From NCBI RefSeq assembly GCF_030186535.1, contig NZ_JASNVW010000001.1:248001-312000 (forward strand): a DNA stretch of 64,000 nucleotides, in the 5' to 3' direction. The position numbers were made by a program, and so were the translations under genes. Below are positions 13,536 to 63,328 of this stretch, one piece after another. The notes below the pieces were generated by a model. That model did not search any database and had not been told where the DNA came from. It saw only the letters and a list, made by a program, of their open reading frames with translations. The stretch's first letter is position 1. The number at the start of each line of letters is the position of its first letter. The DNA comes from Ignisphaera cupida (GTDB lineage Archaea; Thermoproteota; Thermoprotei_A; Sulfolobales; Ignisphaeraceae).

Positions 13536-14393
13536 TTATTGCAATATTTTTATTGGCTGAGCTTTTAATTTTCTTTTCTTCTTCAAAATTTTTCTTATGT
13601 GGATAAGCATTGATACAACAACATATGTTATGCTGGAGGTTGCTAGGTAGAGCATATCCGAAAACCTTACTGTATCTGTACTTTCAACACGTTTGATAGG
13701 CTCCATGCTGATTATCATGTCGATGCGCCTCTCAATTTCTTCCTCAGTGAGATCAGGGGCGTAGAAAATCGTTTTTGCAGCTTCATATGCTGAACACTTG
13801 TAAATTACTGAATCGAAATAGGTTTTCACAAGATATGCAATTGAAATACTTAAAGCAGTAGCAGCTAAATATGCTGCTAAACCTGTTGCCAAAGCTTTTT
13901 TAGATGCTGTACCTGGTGGATACAGAATTCCCGATGGATACAAAATTCTTGTGAATACAAATGGCAAACCAAACCAGTAGAGGTATATTAGTGGTATTGA
14001 CAAAAAGATTTTATGTAGATCATCAACAAGAGCAGAATTTGCTTGATACAATCTAGACATGAATATTGATGCGTAAAACAAGAAAGTTGCTGAGCCATAG
14101 CCAATGGCAATGGGTATAACAACATGTTTAACTGCGTTAATCACAAATGATCTATCAATTGATTTAACAATAAGCAGCAAGCCCATTGCCATAAATAAGC
14201 AAATAGTTGAAACATCATAGAAAAACCTATTCAAAACATAAACCAGAAGAGCACTCCAAATATAGTGAGGATAGGGAACAATGGCTCTTAAAGAATCAGC
14301 AAAACACTTGTTTCTAGCAAGCAAAGGCGAAAACGCATAGAACGAAATAAAAACAGCAATAAAAGTAATCACCACTACAATTCTTCTATTCAT
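13536..14393 (-). CDS. Multi-pass membrane protein, unknown
   Basis: 285 residues with roughly seven hydrophobic segments (for example VVVITFIAVFISFYAFSPLL, STICLFMAMGLLLIVKSI, TGLAAYLAATALSISIAYLV, MLYLATSSITYVVVSMLI) and a short cytoplasmic Lys-rich tail. A charged loop EEEIERRIDMI lies near residue 225. I do not recognise the family. GGTGGG precedes its ATG. It starts 11 nt after the stop of the large surface protein gene, so both form an operon; it may anchor or export that protein, which is inference from position only. Confidence 0.65.
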   Translation of the reverse strand: MNRRIVVVITFIAVFISFYAFSPLLARNKCFADSLRAIVPYPHYIWSALLVYVLNRFFYDVSTICLFMAMGLLLIVKSIDRSFVINAVKHVVIPIAIGYGSATFLFYASIFMSRLYQANSALVDDLHKIFLSIPLIYLYWFGLPFVFTRILYPSGILYPPGTASKKALATGLAAYLAATALSISIAYLVKTYFDSVIYKCSAYEAAKTIFYAPDLTEEEIERRIDMIISMEPIKRVESTDTVRFSDMLYLATSSITYVVVSMLIHIRKILKKKRKLKAQPIKILQ

Positions 14394-14404
14394 AGCTACC
14401 CACC

Positions 14405-16930
14405 TTAGCCAAGCGGACTTGGTTTAAATCTCAACTCACCAACAAAATAATTCCAAATATTACCTGTTACAGGTGAAGACCCAGGTGCCAACCAATATAT
14501 AGCAGTAACACTGTATTTAATAATAATATCATTGTCATTCCAGGGACTATATGATGGCATAATATACAACTTTACTCTCAATAAGTCTCCTGAGCAAATA
14601 CCAGATGTGCTTGATGTGCATGTGATGTAGGAGTTTTTCCAATAGATTACACAAGACACAGTATCTGAACTAGGCTTTGAACATGTTACATAGGTTGTGC
14701 AAACAGGTATGCAAGATGCCAAACTCTCTATTATCCATGATGCAGCACCAATAACTATTCCAACAACTCCTGGAACAAAATTCAAAATAAATGAAAGTGC
14801 TGAAGCCACAAGAAACTCTCTTAACTCTTGTGGAGGTGTTGATATACCCTTATGATATGCATTTACAAAAGGATCGCTAAGCATTGTTCCGGTCTGCGTC
14901 ACATTAATGACTATATGCAAATATCCAACAACATAAGCAATATTTGCATAGCTATCACTTTCCGAATACGTTGAGGTGTATTTTCCAATAGCATCAAGCG
15001 TAAGAAACACCGCTAACATATCATATTCATTAATTGAAGGTCTATTAACCTCAACTGTAAATACATCACTTGCAAGTTCTGTATGTTTTCCTGGTACAAA
15101 CCATTTGCTTGTACCTCCATATGAATATGTCTGCATACTTATAATGTACGCTGAATTTATCGTAGGACTTTCTGTGGGATCTAGCCACATGGGCTGTATA
15201 TAAGGTGCTGCACTCATTCTTGCGTAGTATCTTATTTTGAATGGTTTTACGAACCAGTATGAATCGTAGTTGTTGTATCCTCGGATTTTAACATATATTA
15301 TTGGCATGTCAGAGTCTCTTAGCGATGCGTATATGAGGTATGGTACTAGGTATTGCGCATTTGTCTTTAGTTGTTGTGCTGAACAAGTAAATGTTCTTAC
15401 TCCTGCTGTTCCATTCGCTATACTACTTCCTCTAGCAACACCACTACAAACATTGACTAGAGGTCCTCGAGCAAAACCAATGTATATATTGACATATCTA
15501 TCGTATAGCTGATTAGAATCGCTTTCAACAGTAATGTCAGTAAAATCAGCTGGAATATCATCAAAAACATCCAGGTTTTTATAGATGAAGAATACTCCAT
15601 CACCAGTATATCTATTTAGAACATATCTCTCATCCCAAGCACTTCCATCGTCTGGAGCACCACCTCCAGAGAATTTCTGTTCAGCAACATAAACAAAGTT
15701 TGTTGGTCTACTACTCGATACATATGCTTGGCAAACAACATTTGCATGAAGTTTTAGCAAAGCATTTGATGGTGTTGCATATGGAATTGATATTGCAACG
15801 CTCAAATTCGATTTAGGTTTGAAGTATTGACTGTTGGACGGTTTTGGAATGTAAAAGTAGATATCTGAAAGCTTATCTCTAAAAACATCGAGGTTATAGC
15901 TATAGGAAGAGCCATTGATATTGATTGTTATTGGAATTTTTGCATCAACATTCAAAGAACCAATGAAAATTCTTAGATAACACATTGAGGTGTTGTGCAT
16001 AATTGTTACTCTATCGATTTGATACCATGGATAAGAAGAAATTGTTGCATTAATGAATTTACCTAGATACACATATGATGTTGGCGAAGTTACTTCACCA
16101 ACAACACCACTTGATTCCCATGGTCTATAATAGTAAAGCGTTGGATCATCATCACCTTTAGCAATTTTCTCTACTAATTGTTTAGGTGCTTTCTCAACAG
16201 CTTTCACATTGCTTCTTGAAATTTTAGCAAGCTTATATCTATTCACAAGCTTGTTACTATCTATAACCATTTCAATTATTTTTTCACCATTTTCAACGTT
16301 GATTACCGTGTATATTGTTTTTGTTGATAATGTCAATAGGTTTTCTATTGGTGTTGATACTTTTGACTTGTTGTTGAAGTACATTGCTATTTCAAAACCA
16401 TTGTAATCTATTATTGCTCTATTCAAAAAGCCTTTTTTCAATGCCTTCAAACTCCAGTTCTCAACAGGGTATCTACCTCTAGCATTGCTTGGAATAAAAA
16501 CAACAACTGTTGATGTGTCTTCAACTGTATATGGATTTAAAACAATGTCAACATCCTTTAAATACCTTCTGTTTTCCTTTTTAGATAATTCCTTAACGAG
16601 ATTCTCATAGCCTATTTCACTAACCCACTTACTAATAGACTTGTTCTTGTATAGAGTATCTACAGTAATGTTAATTGAAACTCTTTCACCAGGTAACAAA
16701 GTATATGGTAACTCAACCTCAAAACCGTTGATGTAAGCTAAGAACATAATGGAATCGAATCTAGCACCAAAATACGAAAGATCAACAATAAGAGGAGTAG
16801 ATTCAACAAAACTATTAACAAAATTAGCCACACTGCTTTGAGCATACAAATAAACAACGAAAATAGTCTGATCAGTGAAAAGTAGAAGCAAAATCAAAAA
16901 CGCAAAAACAAGCCTTGGCTTTAAAAACAT
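14405..16930 (-). CDS. Large secreted surface protein, unknown
   Basis: About 841 residues from the ATG at 16930, which has GGTGGTG upstream; the frame continues to a GTG at 16939. A signal peptide or anchor (FLKPRLVFAFLILLLLF) is followed by a long Thr/Ser/Tyr/Asn-rich extracellular region of beta character with many N-glycosylation sequons. Near the C-terminus there is one hydrophobic stretch (EFLVASALSFILNFVPGVVG) and a cysteine-rich part (CIPVCTTYVTCSKPS with further CVIYW, ITCTS and GICSG), which suggests disulphides or a metal site. No catalytic motif is visible. The promoter is the divergent region contained in the 206-bp inverted repeat copy 16933-17138. Confidence 0.68.
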   Translation of the reverse strand: MFLKPRLVFAFLILLLLFTDQTIFVVYLYAQSSVANFVNSFVESTPLIVDLSYFGARFDSIMFLAYINGFEVELPYTLLPGERVSINITVDTLYKNKSISKWVSEIGYENLVKELSKKENRRYLKDVDIVLNPYTVEDTSTVVVFIPSNARGRYPVENWSLKALKKGFLNRAIIDYNGFEIAMYFNNKSKVSTPIENLLTLSTKTIYTVINVENGEKIIEMVIDSNKLVNRYKLAKISRSNVKAVEKAPKQLVEKIAKGDDDPTLYYYRPWESSGVVGEVTSPTSYVYLGKFINATISSYPWYQIDRVTIMHNTSMCYLRIFIGSLNVDAKIPITININGSSYSYNLDVFRDKLSDIYFYIPKPSNSQYFKPKSNLSVAISIPYATPSNALLKLHANVVCQAYVSSSRPTNFVYVAEQKFSGGGAPDDGSAWDERYVLNRYTGDGVFFIYKNLDVFDDIPADFTDITVESDSNQLYDRYVNIYIGFARGPLVNVCSGVARGSSIANGTAGVRTFTCSAQQLKTNAQYLVPYLIYASLRDSDMPIIYVKIRGYNNYDSYWFVKPFKIRYYARMSAAPYIQPMWLDPTESPTINSAYIISMQTYSYGGTSKWFVPGKHTELASDVFTVEVNRPSINEYDMLAVFLTLDAIGKYTSTYSESDSYANIAYVVGYLHIVINVTQTGTMLSDPFVNAYHKGISTPPQELREFLVASALSFILNFVPGVVGIVIGAASWIIESLASCIPVCTTYVTCSKPSSDTVSCVIYWKNSYITCTSSTSGICSGDLLRVKLYIMPSYSPWNDNDIIIKYSVTAIYWLAPGSSPVTGNIWNYFVGELRFKPSPLG

Positions 16931-16932
16931 GC

Positions 16933-17138
16933 ACACCACCTTTCATACCAGTTTTCTCATTTAGGGTATTTATTTTTTTGTATATCAGAGTATGAATTGC
17001 TGTGATTGCAATGCACCATTGAGGCAATTAAAATGTTGTTTGCATATTTGAATTGAGGAAACGAGGAATGTAGATAAATAAGTTTTGTTAGAAAAATATT
17101 TTTTGTTGCGGTTTATTTCTATGGGTGTTTGCAAACTT
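16933..17138 (+). repeat. 206-bp inverted repeat, left copy
   Basis: This sequence is the reverse complement of 20658-20863 with only two mismatches in 206 positions, both substitutions and no indel. It spans the entire divergent promoter region between the large surface protein gene (16930, leftward) and the radical SAM gene (17121, rightward), including the GGTGGTG ribosome binding site of the former and the first five to six codons of the latter. The identity ends abruptly on both sides. Confidence 0.97.
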
Positions 17139-18269
17139 TGTGGCGCTAAAGGTGTTGTGATTAGCGATGTTATTGGTGTTTGCTCAGCTTGTTTGAGGAG
17201 TAGAGGTGAGGAGGCTGTTTCAATTGCTATGAAGGTGCATAGTAGGTATAGATCTGGTTTGGGTCTTCCAGTAAACCCCCCAAATAATTTAAATGGTGTT
17301 AAATGTGGTTTGTGTGTTAATGAGTGTGTTATTGGTGTTGGGGAAACTGGTTATTGTGGTCTTTGGCTTAATGATGGTGGATTGCTAAAATTTGTTGAGG
17401 GTTTCAATGCGGGTGTTTTGTATGCTTATCTAGATCCTCTTCCAACAAATTGTGTTGCGACACCTGTGTGTCCAGCTGCTACTGGGTGTGACTACCCCAG
17501 GTATAGTGTTAGCATGGGTTCTGAATATGGCTATTACAATCTTGCAGTGTTTTTTGCTGGTTGCAACCTCAACTGTGTTTTTTGTCAAAACTTGGATCAC
17601 AAAAACATAGTTGCTTCTCAGGCTCTTAGAAAAAGATATGTTGTTTCTAAGAGTGAGCTTGTTGAAAAAGCTTTGAACAATGATAGAGTTACATGCATTT
17701 GCTACTTTGGTGGTGATCCAGGGCCCCACATACTCTACGCACTTGAGGTTTCTAAAGTAATTGTTGATGAGGCTAGGAGAAGGGGCTTAGTGAAGAGAAT
17801 TTGCTGGGAAACTAATGGTCTTGAAAACCCAGGTGTTATGAGGGAAATGGCTAGGCTAAGTCTAGAGTCAGGAGGTATTGTGAAAATAGATTGGAAAGCA
17901 TATACACCAGAGGTGTATCAGGCGCTTACAGGTGTGAATGGATATAAAGCTGTTGAGAGAATTAAGGAGAATATAAGAATTGTTGCTGAAATGGCTAGGG
18001 AAAGACCGGAGGTGCCGCTTCTAACAATTAGCATTCTTCTTGTGCCAGGCTATGTGGATGAGAAAGAGCTTATGGGGATGGCTGAATACATAGCTTCCAT
18101 AGATAATGAGATACCAGTTGTTTTGCTTGCTTTTCACCCTGATCATCTACTAAAGGATTTGCCTCCAACAAGCATAGGCCATGCTGCAGCAGCTGTGAAG
18201 ATATTTAAGGGTTATGGAGTAGAAAGAGTTTTTATAGGAAATGAATGGCTTTTAGGGCCATACTACTGA
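17121..18269 (+). CDS. Radical SAM enzyme, PFL-activase-like, with N-terminal Zn ribbon
   Basis: 382 residues from ATG 17121 (an in-frame TTG at 17085 lies inside the inverted repeat and is less likely). The N-terminus has zinc-ribbon cysteines (VCKLCG, GVCSACL, KCGLCVNECVIG and YCGL). The radical SAM triad is GCNLNCVFCQN, followed by CYFGGDPGPH, WETNG and a C-terminal VPGYVDEKELMGMA. The order resembles the AmmeMemoRadiSam-type radical SAM (COG1180) and pyruvate-formate-lyase activases; no glycyl radical enzyme is nearby, so the substrate is unknown. Its first codons are duplicated in the second repeat copy at 20658-20863. Confidence 0.85.
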   Translation: MGVCKLCGAKGVVISDVIGVCSACLRSRGEEAVSIAMKVHSRYRSGLGLPVNPPNNLNGVKCGLCVNECVIGVGETGYCGLWLNDGGLLKFVEGFNAGVLYAYLDPLPTNCVATPVCPAATGCDYPRYSVSMGSEYGYYNLAVFFAGCNLNCVFCQNLDHKNIVASQALRKRYVVSKSELVEKALNNDRVTCICYFGGDPGPHILYALEVSKVIVDEARRRGLVKRICWETNGLENPGVMREMARLSLESGGIVKIDWKAYTPEVYQALTGVNGYKAVERIKENIRIVAEMARERPEVPLLTISILLVPGYVDEKELMGMAEYIASIDNEIPVVLLAFHPDHLLKDLPPTSIGHAAAAVKIFKGYGVERVFIGNEWLLGPYY

Positions 18270-18350
18270 AATATTTGGTTAGATATCTGCAAAAATATTC
18301 TAGGCTTAAATATTGCTGAATGTTAATTGGATTTGAAGAGGTGTAATTGT

Positions 18351-19565
18351 TTGGATAGTCTTGTTGATACTGTGATTAGCTATGGCAAAGAAGCTTTAAA
18401 CATTCTTTCTAAACATGTTCACAAAACTCCTTTGGACTTCAGCTTAACCTTTTCCAAGTTAAGTGGAAACAGTGTTTATCTAAAGCTTGAAAACATGCAG
18501 AAAACAGGTTCTTTCAAAATTAGAGGAGCTTTATACAAAATTCAAAAGCATTTGGAAGAGGCTAGGGCAAGAGGTGTTGTTGCAGCTTCTAGTGGTAACC
18601 ATGCCCAGGGTGTTGCATATGCAGCTTCTATTCTAGGTGTTGAAGCAACTATTGTCATGCCTATAACAACACCTGTTTTCAAAGTTAATGCAACAAAGGG
18701 TTATGGAGCAAATGTTGTTCTCTTTGGAGAGTTCTATGATGATGCATATAAAAAGGCTTTGGAGATAGCTGAAGAGAGAAAAGCTTTGTTTATTCATCCA
18801 TTTAACGATGTTGAGATTATTGCTGGTCAAAGCACAATAGGTTTTGAAATTGTTGAGCAGCTACCCTCTGTGGATGTTGTTGTTGTGCCTATTGGTGGTG
18901 GAGGACTCATATCCGGTGTGGGAGCAGTGTTGAAGAAGCTTAGACCAGGGGTTAAAGTCATTGGTGTTGAACCCAAAAATGCACCAAAATACTTTGTTTC
19001 TAAGCAGTATGGAAAAGTTATTGAGATTGTCCCAGCCCCGTCTCTCGCTGATGCTGTTGTAGCTAAGAGTGTTGGTGACATAACTTTTCAGATAATGAAT
19101 GAGGTTGTAGATGATGTTGTAACAGTTGATGAAGATTCTATTGCAAAAGCTATATATTTGCTTATGGAGAGATCAAAAATTGTTGTAGAAGGTGCTGGTG
19201 CTCTTCCTCTTGCAGCTTTGCTTGAAGGCTACTTATCTGGAAAGCAAAAAAATGTTGTGCTTGTTGTTAGTGGGGGAAACATTGATTTGACAACTCTGTA
19301 TAGAGTTGTTTTGAGGGGGTTGGCAAGTGATGGTAGAGTAGCTATGCTTAGAATTGTTTTGAGGGATGTTCCCGGGGAGTTGCTAAAAGCTCTAAATATT
19401 TTCTATAGATATAGATGCAACATAATAGACATTAGACATGATAGATATAGCTTAGCTACTCCAGTAGGCTATGCAGTTGTTGAAATTATTTTTGAAACTC
19501 CAGAGAAGGGAGTTGTTGATGAGATTAGGAAAGAGCTTGAGAAAATGTCTATAAAGATTATTTAG
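18351..19565 (+). CDS. ilvA: Threonine dehydratase (PLP, with ACT domain)
   Basis: Deaminates threonine to 2-oxobutanoate, the first step to isoleucine or a catabolic reaction. PLP fold type II with the Lys motif GSFKIRGAL, SSGNHAQGVA for the phosphate/substrate and VVPIGGGGLISG. The C-terminal 80 residues (MLRIVLRDVPGELLKALN onward) form an ACT domain, typical of allosteric control. The frame opens with TTG at 18327, but GAGGTG lies 7 nt before a second TTG at 18351 (encoding LDSLVDTVIS), and the TATA-like TTAAATATT near 18306 would place transcription start near 18330, so I prefer 18351. Bacterial tdcB- and ilvA-type enzymes are hard to separate here. Confidence 0.9.
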   Translation: MDSLVDTVISYGKEALNILSKHVHKTPLDFSLTFSKLSGNSVYLKLENMQKTGSFKIRGALYKIQKHLEEARARGVVAASSGNHAQGVAYAASILGVEATIVMPITTPVFKVNATKGYGANVVLFGEFYDDAYKKALEIAEERKALFIHPFNDVEIIAGQSTIGFEIVEQLPSVDVVVVPIGGGGLISGVGAVLKKLRPGVKVIGVEPKNAPKYFVSKQYGKVIEIVPAPSLADAVVAKSVGDITFQIMNEVVDDVVTVDEDSIAKAIYLLMERSKIVVEGAGALPLAALLEGYLSGKQKNVVLVVSGGNIDLTTLYRVVLRGLASDGRVAMLRIVLRDVPGELLKALNIFYRYRCNIIDIRHDRYSLATPVGYAVVEIIFETPEKGVVDEIRKELEKMSIKII

Positions 19566-19587
19566 AGAAACAAGATTTGTGCATGGT

Positions 19588-20454
19588 CTAGCTACAAGTG
19601 TTTGAATTGCTTTTTGATGCTACATATATTGCTAATGTGATTAGAGCTCCACCAGCCACTCTTCTAACATCTATTTCCTCACCATATATAGCAACAGAGA
19701 ATAGAAATGCGAATAAAGGCTCTAGAAGATATATTGTAGATGCTATAGCTGGATTCACATGCCTTTGCCCAATTACTTGAAGAAGCGATGCAGCTATTGA
19801 GCATGCAGCAGCTAGATAGAAAATGTAGAGCCATGTTCCAAAGCCTACTGATGAGATATTGTCAGAAGCAAGTGTTATTGGTGCTAGTGAAAGCGAGGGA
19901 ATAAACATGCCGTAGAGAAAATCAGAAAAACTCTTAACATTTTTGCTATACCTCGACACAAGAACTATTTGAGCTCCCCAAGCTATTGAACCAGCAAAAA
20001 CCATGAGCTCTCCAAAGCCAAAATCACCACTAGGTAATGTAACCATGTAGAGACCAAGCAATGCAAGTATAAGTGAAGCTAAGAGGGAAAGACCATAGCT
20101 TTTCTCAACAAAAGCGCAGTAAACATGCACATGAACAGTATTAAGCCCAGTTATGAAAGCACTCGTCGATGGTGTGGTGTACCTCGTTCCAATACCTTGA
20201 AGAAGAAGACCAAACAAATAAGCAACACCTGTAACAACGCCACCAAAAAATCCAGCAGAATCAAACAAGCCAGTAAACAGTCTATACAAAACAAATGGTG
20301 TTAACAAAGCAACAGCAAAAAGCATTCTGTAAAAAGTGTAGCCAAAACCAGAAACAACTTCAACAGAAAACTTGATAAAAACAAATGAGCTGCCCCACAA
20401 AACAGCTACGAAAACAAGTACAACATAATATAAAAGCCTAGACCCCAACAACAA
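19588..20454 (-). CDS. DMT/EamA-family transporter
   Basis: 288 residues with ten transmembrane helices in two EamA halves, beginning YYVVLVFVAVLWGSSFVFIK and including the family pattern GYTFYRMLFAVALLTPF and LEPLFAFLFSVAIYGE. Such permeases export metabolites, often amino acids. It is convergent with the threonine dehydratase gene with a gap of about 20 nt. Threonine or a related amino acid is a plausible cargo by position only. It may have a short 5' leader; the next feature upstream is tRNA-Gly. Confidence 0.82.
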   Translation of the reverse strand: MLLGSRLLYYVVLVFVAVLWGSSFVFIKFSVEVVSGFGYTFYRMLFAVALLTPFVLYRLFTGLFDSAGFFGGVVTGVAYLFGLLLQGIGTRYTTPSTSAFITGLNTVHVHVYCAFVEKSYGLSLLASLILALLGLYMVTLPSGDFGFGELMVFAGSIAWGAQIVLVSRYSKNVKSFSDFLYGMFIPSLSLAPITLASDNISSVGFGTWLYIFYLAAACSIAASLLQVIGQRHVNPAIASTIYLLEPLFAFLFSVAIYGEEIDVRRVAGGALITLAIYVASKSNSNTCS

Positions 20455-20562
20455 ACACCAACAAGTGCCAACAAAACCACGAGAATATAAGCACTAAATC
20501 TGTGAATCCAAAATCCTTGACAAACAAAAATTAAAAAACTCAGAGCACTATCAAAGCATCTG

Positions 20563-20638
20563 GCGGCGGTCGTCTAGCCTGGTCTAGGACGCCGGCCTCC
20601 CAAGCCGGAGATCCCGGGTTCAAATCCCGGCCGCCGCA
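20563..20638 (+). tRNA. tRNA-Gly (anticodon CCC)
   Basis: GCGGCGG (20563-20569) pairs with CCGCCGC (20631-20637); discriminator A at 20638. The anticodon loop is CTCCCAA on a CCGGC/GCCGG stem, anticodon CCC. T arm CCGGG-TTCAAAT-CCCGG. There is no intron. Its 3' 30 nt recur at 23257-23286, marking it as the attachment site of an integrative element. Confidence 0.95.
20609..20638 (+). repeat. Attachment repeat, tRNA-side copy (attL)
   Basis: These last 30 nt of tRNA-Gly match 23257-23286 at 27 of 30 positions in the same orientation. A repeat of a tRNA 3' end flanking a tyrosine recombinase is the signature of integration into a tRNA gene. The three mismatches in the distal copy indicate that it is no longer under tRNA selection and that the insertion is old. 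Confidence 0.88.
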
Positions 20639-20657
20639 CCTCTCTACATAGATCGAG

Positions 20658-20863
20658 AAGTTTGCAAACACCCATAGAAATAAACCTCAACAAAAAATAT
20701 TTTTCTAACAAAACTTATTTATCTACATTCCTCGTTTCCTCAATTCAAATATGCAAACAACATTCTAATTGCCTCAATGGTGCATTGCAATCACAGCAAT
20801 TCATACTCTGATATACAAAAAAATAAATACCCTAAATGAGAAAACTGGTATGAAAGGTGGTGT
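20658..20863 (-). repeat. 206-bp inverted repeat, right copy
   Basis: Reverse complement of 16933-17138 with 204 of 206 matches. It begins 20 nt after tRNA-Gly and ends 4 nt before the start codon of the secreted-protein gene at 20868, to which it supplies the promoter and GGTGGTG ribosome binding site. Read on the minus strand its inner end holds the first five to six codons of the radical SAM gene, now fused to unrelated sequence running into the tRNA. Both ends coincide with gene starts, so a complete divergent promoter was copied. Confidence 0.97.
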
Positions 20864-20867
20864 ACTG

Positions 20868-21881
20868 ATGAGAGTTGGAACGTTAATAACAATAATGCTT
20901 ATGTTAGTCATAGTGTCTAGCATTCCCATGGCGTTGGCTGATAGTAATATACAAATATACACTATATATGACTACGATAATCTTGTGATAGTTGCTATAA
21001 ATAGATCTGCTCTCACGTATTTAGGTAATGGTTATTGGCTCTTAGTGTTACCAAACATGGATGCAGTAACGTTCTCGTCAGAACTTGTTAATGAAATAAT
21101 TGGTAAATTTATAGGTCCTAGAGCAACCTATTTAAGACTACGCATTACCATGACCGTTGATGGTTATAGAATTGTAAAGACTATTGACAGTTTGAATGCT
21201 TTAGATGCGTCAGATAATGAGGTTATGAGTGCGATTATGCGGGCACTCAATGTAACTAGAGCTCGTGAAGCATGGGTCTTGTTCCTTGGTAATAATGTGA
21301 TTAGAATTGATGTTGTAGCTGAGAATGGTATTGATGTTGAGAAGATTGCTAAGGAGCTCTCAGATATTGCTAGGAGTCATAAGATTGTTGTTATCGAGAC
21401 TTTGAGTAGTGGAATACCCTCATACTTTGATGCTCAAGATCTCTATGAGAATCTGAAAAAGATCTCTTGCTTTGTTAGCATGGGAGAATCGCTCTATGGA
21501 GTCAATATATGGTTTAACATTTCGTGTATTAAGGAGTTAGCTATTGCAACTAATAGAAGCTTCAATGAGGCAATAGAGGATGTTGCCAACTCTGTGAAGA
21601 CTCTAAACCCATTATTAAGAAAGTATCTACCTTACCAGGATATCGTGGTACTAGTTGCACAGCCTCCACCACCAGCCATACCTCTACCTGGTGAAGTTAA
21701 ACCTGTCGAGAAGATAAATCACACAGAAATAGTGGAGATCGAGAAGATAAAGCATACAGAAACTGTAGAAATATTGCAGACATCATCCGACTTACCACAA
21801 CAGATCTTTATCATTTCAGCAATCGTTGTAACAGTTGCTATAACACCTGTGCTATGGAGAATAAGATCAATAAAAAGATAG
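20868..21881 (+). CDS. Secreted, C-terminally anchored surface protein, unknown
   Basis: 337 residues from ATG 20868, which has GGTGGTG 5 nt upstream; the frame is open to 20769 but that extension lies in the inverted repeat and is not credible. A signal peptide (residues 1-24) and a C-terminal transmembrane helix (about 313-331, IFIISAIVVTVAITPVLW) with a basic tail frame an ectodomain of about 280 residues that is rich in Ile/Asp/Asn. Just before the anchor are two near-identical 10-11-residue repeats (EKINHTEIVE and EKIKHTETVE) after a Pro-rich linker. The domain is unrecognised. The gene shares its promoter with the large surface protein gene via the inverted repeat. Confidence 0.7.
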   Translation: MRVGTLITIMLMLVIVSSIPMALADSNIQIYTIYDYDNLVIVAINRSALTYLGNGYWLLVLPNMDAVTFSSELVNEIIGKFIGPRATYLRLRITMTVDGYRIVKTIDSLNALDASDNEVMSAIMRALNVTRAREAWVLFLGNNVIRIDVVAENGIDVEKIAKELSDIARSHKIVVIETLSSGIPSYFDAQDLYENLKKISCFVSMGESLYGVNIWFNISCIKELAIATNRSFNEAIEDVANSVKTLNPLLRKYLPYQDIVVLVAQPPPPAIPLPGEVKPVEKINHTEIVEIEKIKHTETVEILQTSSDLPQQIFIISAIVVTVAITPVLWRIRSIKR

Positions 21882-22180
21882 TTATTTTTAGGTTATAACT
21901 ATACATCAAGTGTTGCTTTATTTGTTAAATAATGACAAGGCATGTTGTTTGATAGATGAGCGTTTATTGAACTTAAGTTACTTGAAGACGAAATTCGCAT
22001 GAGGATTTTCTAAGAAACAACACAACGAACCACGATTAGGTAAATATACTACTGGATTATTGTCTAATGTACATGTTTATGTTGATTGAATTAGGGTCGA
22101 AACCTTGGACAGCCGTATTTCAAGATGTAGTTTTATATCATACTGCCGCCTGAACTAACTAATATTTTTTTCCTAATTAA
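21882..22180. other. Non-coding stretch within the relic element
   Basis: No open frame, RNA gene or repeat is visible here. Base composition changes gradually from AT-rich towards the more G+C-rich recombinase debris. Confidence 0.5.
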
Positions 22181-22306
22181 AACTTAAATAACATTATCAT
22201 TGATAGGTTAGAGGCTGAAAAGCTTGTTGAAGCGATCATCCACGCCATTTTTGAGAAAAGGGTTCTAGTGCAGGAGGTTGTAGGTCTCGGTAGAGCGCCC
22301 TTCTAG
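22181..22306 (+). pseudogene. Gene fragment, origin unknown
   Basis: An open stretch of about 41 codons without a start codon reads RLEAEKLVEAIIHAIFEKR and ends VGLGRAPF before TAG at 22304. The even, charged composition and more G+C-rich codons look like the C-terminal end of a formerly real protein in the relic element. I cannot assign it. Confidence 0.35.
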
Positions 22307-22340
22307 GACATGGAGAGAGTAGTTCCCATAGGCTTGATGC

Positions 22341-22655
22341 TTAAAACCCTAATCTTGTAATACCGCTCTCTAGAATAGCATTTGCATACTCTATTATGTC
22401 TCCCCATCCGCTAGGATATGCAGCTACCGAGCCGATCCTATTATGCTGGTGGTGCTCCATATTTATATGGGCGAGGCATAGCCTTCCATACTCAGTGTTT
22501 GCACAGTAATCGGTGAATAGAGACATTAGAATTCTAGCAAGCCTATCAGCTGTGTTAAGGATATCAATACCCCATGCCGAGGTCTTACCTGTAGTTTGGT
22601 AATATTTTACAAGAAATGCCTTAGAGAATATAGTGTGAACTACTGATATCTCTGC
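22341..22655 (-). pseudogene. Gene fragment in frame after the recombinase stop
   Basis: Directly after the stop at 22656 the same frame stays open for about 104 codons with protein-like composition (TGKTSAWGIDILNTADRLAR, then HINMEHHQHNRIGSV and AAYPSGWGDIIEYANAIL). It lacks the HxxR and Tyr boxes of a recombinase C-terminus, so it is probably the remnant of another element gene joined by deletion. The function is not recognised. Confidence 0.4.
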
Positions 22656-23286
22656 TTAATTCAAGGCTATCTTTAGATAATTGTCAGTTACGAAGCAATA
22701 GTAAGCTCTTTTAGTGCTTGACCCCTTCATAATAGGTGTTATCACATCCCTAATCTCTATATGCCTCGCCTCAGAGGGTCTTAGCCCTGAGATTGAGAGG
22801 AGATATATGAATAGACCATAGTTTATATAAGCATTGCTCGATATAGAGACGATGTCAGTGAACTCATCAATACTCGGAATTCTCCTCGGATTGAGGGGCT
22901 CAATGCTCCATTTTATCCTCAGCCTCTTCTTAAGAATCTCATAGTGATCACTACATATCGTTGTTTCATACTTATTATCGAGGAACCTAGTGAAATTAGC
23001 AATAACCTTGAGTATGTGCGTCCTCACCTTAGGAGTTTTTATAGCCAGAACCTGGGCAAATCTGGCTGATGAGGCCAAATACCTTAGATACCTCACACAG
23101 ATCTTCATATTCTTCTCATAATAGCTCTTGGAAACAAAATCCCTGACCCAACCGAGAAACTCTGAACCTCTGAATCTAGGTTAAGACCCGCAACAGGGTT
23201 CCAACCAAGAGGTGCACTGGCCTGCCTATCATATGACTTGTCATATGACCCACCATAGATCCCGGGTTCAGATCTCGGTCGCCGCA
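22656..23286 (-). pseudogene. Broken tyrosine recombinase (integrase)
   Basis: The frame 22656-23108 encodes a tyrosine recombinase: helical core-binding part (YLRYLASSARFAQVL, ILKVIANFTRFLDNKYE) and the box I region LLSISGLRPSEARHI with its catalytic Arg. Upstream it can be extended as GSEFLGWVRDFVSKSYYEK to an in-frame stop near 23173. The segment that begins over the attachment repeat (RRPRSEPGIYGG, 23287-23105) is in another frame, so at least one frameshift separates them. The His/Arg box II and catalytic Tyr are absent. The gene reads inward from the tRNA remnant, as in archaeal integrases that carry the attachment site at their start. Confidence 0.78.
23257..23286 (+). repeat. Attachment repeat, distal copy (attR)
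   Basis: A 30-nt copy of the tRNA-Gly 3' end with three substitutions, including two C-to-T changes that break T-stem and acceptor pairs. No 5' tRNA half is present, so it is not a functional tRNA. Marks the outer end of the relic element. Confidence 0.88.
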
Positions 23287-62671: not shown

Positions 62672-63328
62672 ATGATGATAGATATGGGAGTTGTTATAAG
62701 CATTGTAAGTACTATTGTATCTATAGCTGTATCTATTGCTAGCTTAGCTTATTGGCTTGGCAAAAAGTTTTCAGAGATAGATTCAAGATTTAAGCTAATG
62801 GATGAAAGATTTAATCGAATAGATAAAAAGTTTGAGTTAATAGATACAAAATTTAAGCAAATTGATGAAAGATTTAATCAGATAGATAAGAAGATTAGTG
62901 ATCTAGAAAATAGCATTTCTAATCTGAGGTCGAGAATGGATAGATTGGAAAACGCCTTTTCGCAATTTTCAGACCTTCTTATATCTCTACTAAGCAGTAA
63001 AGGCATGTTTACATCAACTGAGGTTATTCTTGTAAAAAGTGTTGTTAAAGCACTGCTTCCAGCAACAAGATCCAAGTACTACACAAAAGAAGTTTATGAA
63101 AAACTCAAGCAACTACTAGATAAGAATCCAGAAGACTACACAATGGCTGATATTGAAGAGCTTTTCAGAATAGCAGATCTCATAGAAATGGAGGGATTTG
63201 AAAGCAATAGAAGAGATTTGAAAGAGTATGCATGGAGACTAAGATTCTATGCCATGATAGTTAGAGCAGTTTACATATATCCAAAGATTGTAAAAGCAGA
63301 AGAAAAAATTGAACACATTAAACGATAA
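62672..63328 (+). CDS. Membrane-anchored coiled-coil protein with heptad repeats
   Basis: 218 residues from ATG 62672 (GGTG upstream; the frame opens with TTG at 62639). One N-terminal membrane helix (VVISIVSTIVSIAVSIASLAYWLG) is followed by a coiled coil with five clear 7-residue repeats of the form F-x-x-I/M-D-x-R/K (FKLMDER, FNRIDKK, FELIDTK, FKQIDER, FNQIDKK, about residues 38-72), then further helix and a helical C-terminal domain rich in charged residues. No known enzyme motif. It could organise other proteins at the membrane. Unrelated in strand-neighbours to the upstream operon. Confidence 0.68.
   Translation: MMIDMGVVISIVSTIVSIAVSIASLAYWLGKKFSEIDSRFKLMDERFNRIDKKFELIDTKFKQIDERFNQIDKKISDLENSISNLRSRMDRLENAFSQFSDLLISLLSSKGMFTSTEVILVKSVVKALLPATRSKYYTKEVYEKLKQLLDKNPEDYTMADIEELFRIADLIEMEGFESNRRDLKEYAWRLRFYAMIVRAVYIYPKIVKAEEKIEHIKR

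Follow-up and report, generated by a model that had tools for sequence, protein, structure and literature searches.

The locus lies in a 64-kb window, by which we mean the whole stretch of DNA that was analysed, and it is organised around two inverted copies of a 206-bp unit that enclose about 3.5 kb and face, on their outer sides, two genes for surface-type proteins, here called surfA and surfB. Its features, in order of position, are the following:

14405–16930, minus strand: surfA, outward of the left copy, a secreted or surface-type protein of unknown family
16933–17138, plus strand: left copy of the unit and the original one; it holds the divergent promoter region of surfA and the radical SAM gene and takes in the first 18 nt of the latter gene
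17121–18269, plus strand: radical SAM gene (Pfam PF04055), whose start lies inside the left copy
18351–19565, plus strand: threonine ammonia-lyase, ilvA-like (TIGR01127), inside the arms; its start codon could be 18327
19588–20454, minus strand: EamA-family exporter (PF00892), enclosed by the arms; the inward half of the right copy lies upstream of it
20563–20640, plus strand: tRNA-Gly (CCC) (ARAGORN, Rfam), the integration target and left att site
20658–20863, minus strand: right copy, inverted and derived, immediately upstream of surfB
20868–21881, plus strand: surfB, intact and outward of the right copy, an acquired gene
22611–23264, minus strand: integrase remnant, C-terminal part, SSV-type archaeal, with an open part at 22656–23108
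23257–23286, plus strand: distal att repeat, which copies the 3' end of the tRNA-Gly (27/30)

The original prediction had the arms agree, after reverse complementing 20658–20863, in 204 of 206 positions, and this was confirmed at 16933–17138, with the two mismatches falling at offsets 98 and 176 (0-based, left-copy orientation). The borders of the arms are sharp, similarity beyond the 206 bp being background only, and these arms are the sole inverted repeat of at least 45 nt found within the window. The unit occupies exactly two sites in the whole genome (1.74 Mb) and was found in none of the 30 related genomes searched, one of which gave a weak 32-bp match. As a base rate for repeats we took 432 kb of a single contig, C1, where no pair of sequences other than the arms reached 95% identity over a stretch of 100 bp or more; the remaining long repeats there are IS/TnpB remnants and ABC-transporter paralogues. 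A chance origin of the inverted repeat is excluded. A MITE, insertion sequence or other transposable element was also considered and rejected, as there are two copies only and the borders read without terminal repeats or target duplication, and a search for an RNA gene within the repeat gave, in Rfam, the tRNA-Gly alone, plus two sub-threshold matches on that tRNA.

Two further repeats were observed. On C1 (G000) a GC-rich repeat of about 190–260 bp is present in four copies (112693–112883, 127470–127727, 503586–503769 and 505767–506026), adjoins resolvase/TnpB-type genes at one site and likely represents the ends of an IS607/TnpB-type element. In the window, 21-bp coding repeats with a coiled-coil-like reading stand in tandem at 62762–62908.

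Since the genome is a 14-contig draft and 206 bp exceeds common short reads, which could have left the inner 3.5 kb placed in an arbitrary orientation, we weighed whether the second copy or that orientation is an assembly mis-join. The copies differ at two bases, however, and their flanks are distinct on all four sides; moreover, the order of ilvA, EamA and tRNA-Gly and the att geometry described below are biologically coherent, and the contig is 626 kb long. We regard an artefact as very improbable.

Outward, both copies finish with AAAGGTGGTGT. They had been thought to end at a start codon, which is not quite the case on this side: they stop 2–4 nt short of the ATGs of the surface genes (16930, minus strand, for surfA; 20868, plus strand, for surfB), right after a GGTG. 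In this genome 25% of gene starts have GGTG at positions -3 to -16, with its peak at -11 to -8, whereas a control position gives 1.7%. This enrichment makes the end of the unit plausible as a Shine-Dalgarno motif. Upstream of the GGTG the unit contains AT-rich, promoter-like sequence, though a composition scan gave no clear TATA consensus. That a whole divergent promoter region had been copied was borne out, as the 206-bp unit spans both promoter regions and is nearly uniform between the copies.

The inward ends, which had both been said to carry the start of the radical SAM gene, do share its first codons, but only the left copy runs on into the gene. There, the region preceding the radical SAM gene is followed by the ATG and five further codons within the unit, and the frame continues. 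In the right copy the same 18 nt form an orphan stub of six codons, whose frame reads MGVCKLLDLCREVRRPGFEPG..., antisense into the tRNA-Gly, and then stops. The radical SAM gene has counterparts in 20 relatives, with identities of at least 47% and varying surroundings, and its N-terminus, MG(V/I/L)C(K/R)(L/I/V)C, is conserved in those relatives where the start could be read on the gene strand. Since this conserved start continues in the left copy and is orphaned in the right, the polarity of the copying can be read: the left copy is the original and the right copy its derivative. The inward half of the right copy points antisense through the tRNA-Gly toward the EamA gene, which is probably a side effect.

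Gene order around the segment was less informative. Among 10 congeners the neighbours that the radical SAM gene has in the window were kept in none, so its synteny can neither date nor orient the segment. Likewise, the order ilvA–EamA–tRNA-Gly is also present in G005 and G006, but with neither the radical SAM gene upstream nor surfB downstream, which leaves the segment unoriented. In three congeners a contig end falls shortly before the radical SAM gene; this looked suspicious, but in two of them the local causes are different, a duplicated segment in G005 and tandem repeats in G003.

The orientation becomes clearer from a feature that the original prediction had not mentioned. The right copy and surfB lie within what we identify, from sequence, as a decayed SSV-type element of about 20641–23286, integrated in the tRNA-Gly (CCC), where the copy has taken the place of the DNA that originally preceded surfB. 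The att pair, 20609–20638 and 23257–23286, is in direct orientation. In SSV-type elements the integrase gene is split at the tRNA upon integration, and as in those elements the C-terminal integrase part begins here at the distal att. An intact counterpart of the remnant was found in G030, a genome of the same order, as a 348-aa open frame with 84% protein and 87% DNA identity to it and a match to Pfam PF16795 ('Archaeal phage integrase'); the 5' part of the G030 gene holds a tRNA-Gly-like stretch (94% over 47 bp). The likeness to SSV-type elements extends from the tRNA target, the direct att repeat and the C-terminal part at the distal att to an intact relative with att-like DNA inside its integrase gene. 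The window element differs in being heavily decayed and in having the repeat copy where the N-terminal integrase part is expected: that part was not found beside the tRNA, its place being taken by 17 nt and then the right copy, and for this reason we class the element as a decayed remnant only. Searches of viral contigs with the repeat, surfB and the integrase, and of plasmids with the integrase remnant, gave no match; a phage search with the remnant gave a 28% stretch matching Betaguttavirus of Aeropyrum. As a separate observation, the orphan stub opens, within window 20675–20454 (minus strand), a 33-codon frame antisense to the tRNA-Gly, which coincides in frame with the VRRPGFEPGI segment that att encodes in the G030 integrase.

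surfB itself encodes a protein with a hydrophobic N-terminus and a C-terminal hydrophobic helix; it had no family match, and its structure prediction (mean pLDDT 39) was unusable. The gene is sporadic, being present in 9 of 197 genomes of the order. In the congener G005 it stands behind another tRNA-Gly, with a partial tRNA repeat downstream, and in Desulfurococcales archaeon EvPrim.Bin15, which is identical to G049, a genome of family f4 in this order, throughout the stretch compared, it lies near a tRNA-Val. The DNA of the surfB region is 86% identical to the window over 871 bp in G005 and 84% identical over 1199 bp in EvPrim.Bin15, in contrast to the radical SAM protein, which is 54–56% identical in two other f4 genomes (G020 and G030). 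These patterns identify surfB as a mobile gene, brought in as cargo of the element, and its dN/dS of about 0.5 indicates moderate constraint only.

The same two relatives preserve the state before the copying, the comparison covering the surfB-side junction. In both, surfB is preceded by a protease-like sequence, as we read the translations (broken in G005; in EvPrim.Bin15 with no Pfam match), and in both the first position homologous to the window is 20866, leaving 2 bp between it and the repeat end at 20863. Since the relatives have this flank and become homologous only from 20866, the copy has evidently replaced native DNA upstream of surfB. Because the relatives keep the pre-event state, both the direction and the relative age of the event are readable.

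How, then, did the repeat arise and what does it do? The original prediction held that recombination between the copies would flip 17139–20657 and leave the radical SAM gene intact, and this stands as physically possible. An invertible segment, kept uniform by frequent inversion or conversion and perhaps altering surface-gene expression, would fit the 206-bp inverted arms with their 99% identity, their two surface-type neighbours and a radical SAM frame that survives the flip. Several features argue against it. An inverton would hold a promoter or a gene end within its invertible part, whereas here the outward promoter regions and the radical SAM start sit in the arms; since the copies are almost identical, the surface genes keep the same upstream DNA either way, and no on/off output is expected. 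No dedicated recombinase was found beside the arms, and the integrase remnant is broken. Moreover, the direct att sites and the position of the remnant, placed as in SSV-type elements, imply that the current orientation is that of the integration event, and no second orientation was seen in the single assembly. We therefore consider such a switch unlikely, and the unit probably did not evolve as one. It is similarly doubtful that flipping of the 3.5-kb segment goes on in the population, so that the two surface genes swap roles, one paired with the radical SAM gene across the divergent promoter and the other facing the tRNA-Gly; were this true, a hyperthermophilic archaeon would have a reversible rearrangement at a locus of surface genes. 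In a typical inverton the repeats are short and enclose a promoter, and there is a recombinase. The locus resembles bacterial invertons (e.g. PMC5903667, PMC11892184) in its inverted repeats near surface-type genes and differs in having its promoters within the arms and no intact recombinase next to them. It warns against taking every large inverted repeat near surface genes for a switch.

The explanation that we favour, and hold to be probable, is promoter capture by an inverted templated duplication. First, an SSV-type element carrying surfB integrated into the tRNA-Gly (CCC) and decayed, a step that can be read directly from the DNA. A 206-bp piece of the intergenic region between the radical SAM gene and surfA, 3.5 kb away, was then copied, inverted, into the space between the tRNA and surfB, where it displaced the native sequence in front of surfB; the copy and the replacement are likewise visible at the locus, and the route may have been break repair or a template switch, with the Shine-Dalgarno motif GGTGT as a possible point of joining. 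The copy would finally give surfB a promoter and a Shine-Dalgarno motif already in use in this genome, although surfB might be transcribed by other means. In line with this reading, near-identical upstream regions stand before the non-homologous genes surfA and surfB, and the copy before surfB appears both derived and newly placed, given its orphan stub and its absence in the two relatives.

If the joint formed at a common Shine-Dalgarno motif, this would account for the copy stopping immediately short of both start codons. The native flank of EvPrim.Bin15 has GGTGT in common with the end of the unit (chance about 0.008), while that of G005 shares 2 nt only, and the GGTGT match may merely reflect two Shine-Dalgarno motifs. 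In yeast, templated inverted insertions at breaks are known, most of them of 5–34 bp (PMC11724301).

With regard to age, a recent duplication was the best-fitting of the options first proposed, the copies differing at 2 of 206 sites, and their high identity would reflect this recency. The dS of surfB among three genomes is 0.18–0.24, compared with 1% divergence of the copies, suggesting, if rates are similar, that the element genes diverged long before the copy was made or last converted. Another reading is that the duplication is older, that gene conversion has kept the arms alike and that surfB has long been under this promoter, as might be suspected from the high identity of the arms next to a visibly decayed element (att 27/30, broken integrase). 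There is, however, no independent sign of conversion, recency alone accounts for the 2/206 differences, and the copy need not date the decay of the element, so we find this improbable. A staggered-break inversion that duplicated its breakpoints was rejected: it needs the unit to be an old neighbour of surfB, which the two relatives and the att geometry contradict.

Promoter capture is a recognised route to the activation of acquired genes (PMC11111574), but the cases described there come from deletion or tandem duplication, unlike the one in the window. The 'mobile promoters' of Matus-Garcia et al. (2012; cited in PMC8049555 and PMC11111574) are alike in placing a near-identical upstream region before unrelated genes, one of them horizontally acquired, and different in that the window unit is divergent and inverted, comprises two promoter regions and a coding stub, lies 3.5 kb from its source and belongs to an archaeon. 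The locus is a tidy archaeal case with clear polarity and an unusual, inverted layout rather than a new kind of system. It shows how a mobile-element gene can be connected to its host: the original DNA upstream has disappeared, and in its place a divergent promoter region of the host sits precisely before the start codon.

Finally, some observations concern the surface-type genes and their neighbours. surfA had no match in Pfam or NCBIfam and no homologue in the congeners searched, with distant matches only (25–28%) in two genomes of the order; together with a membrane gene at 13536–14393 it may form another acquired unit (13536–16930). At L058:7504–9014 and L058:11695–13552 in EvPrim.Bin15 a protease-like gene is in each case followed by a surfB-type gene, and the pair may be a recurrent surface protease module on elements at tRNA genes.
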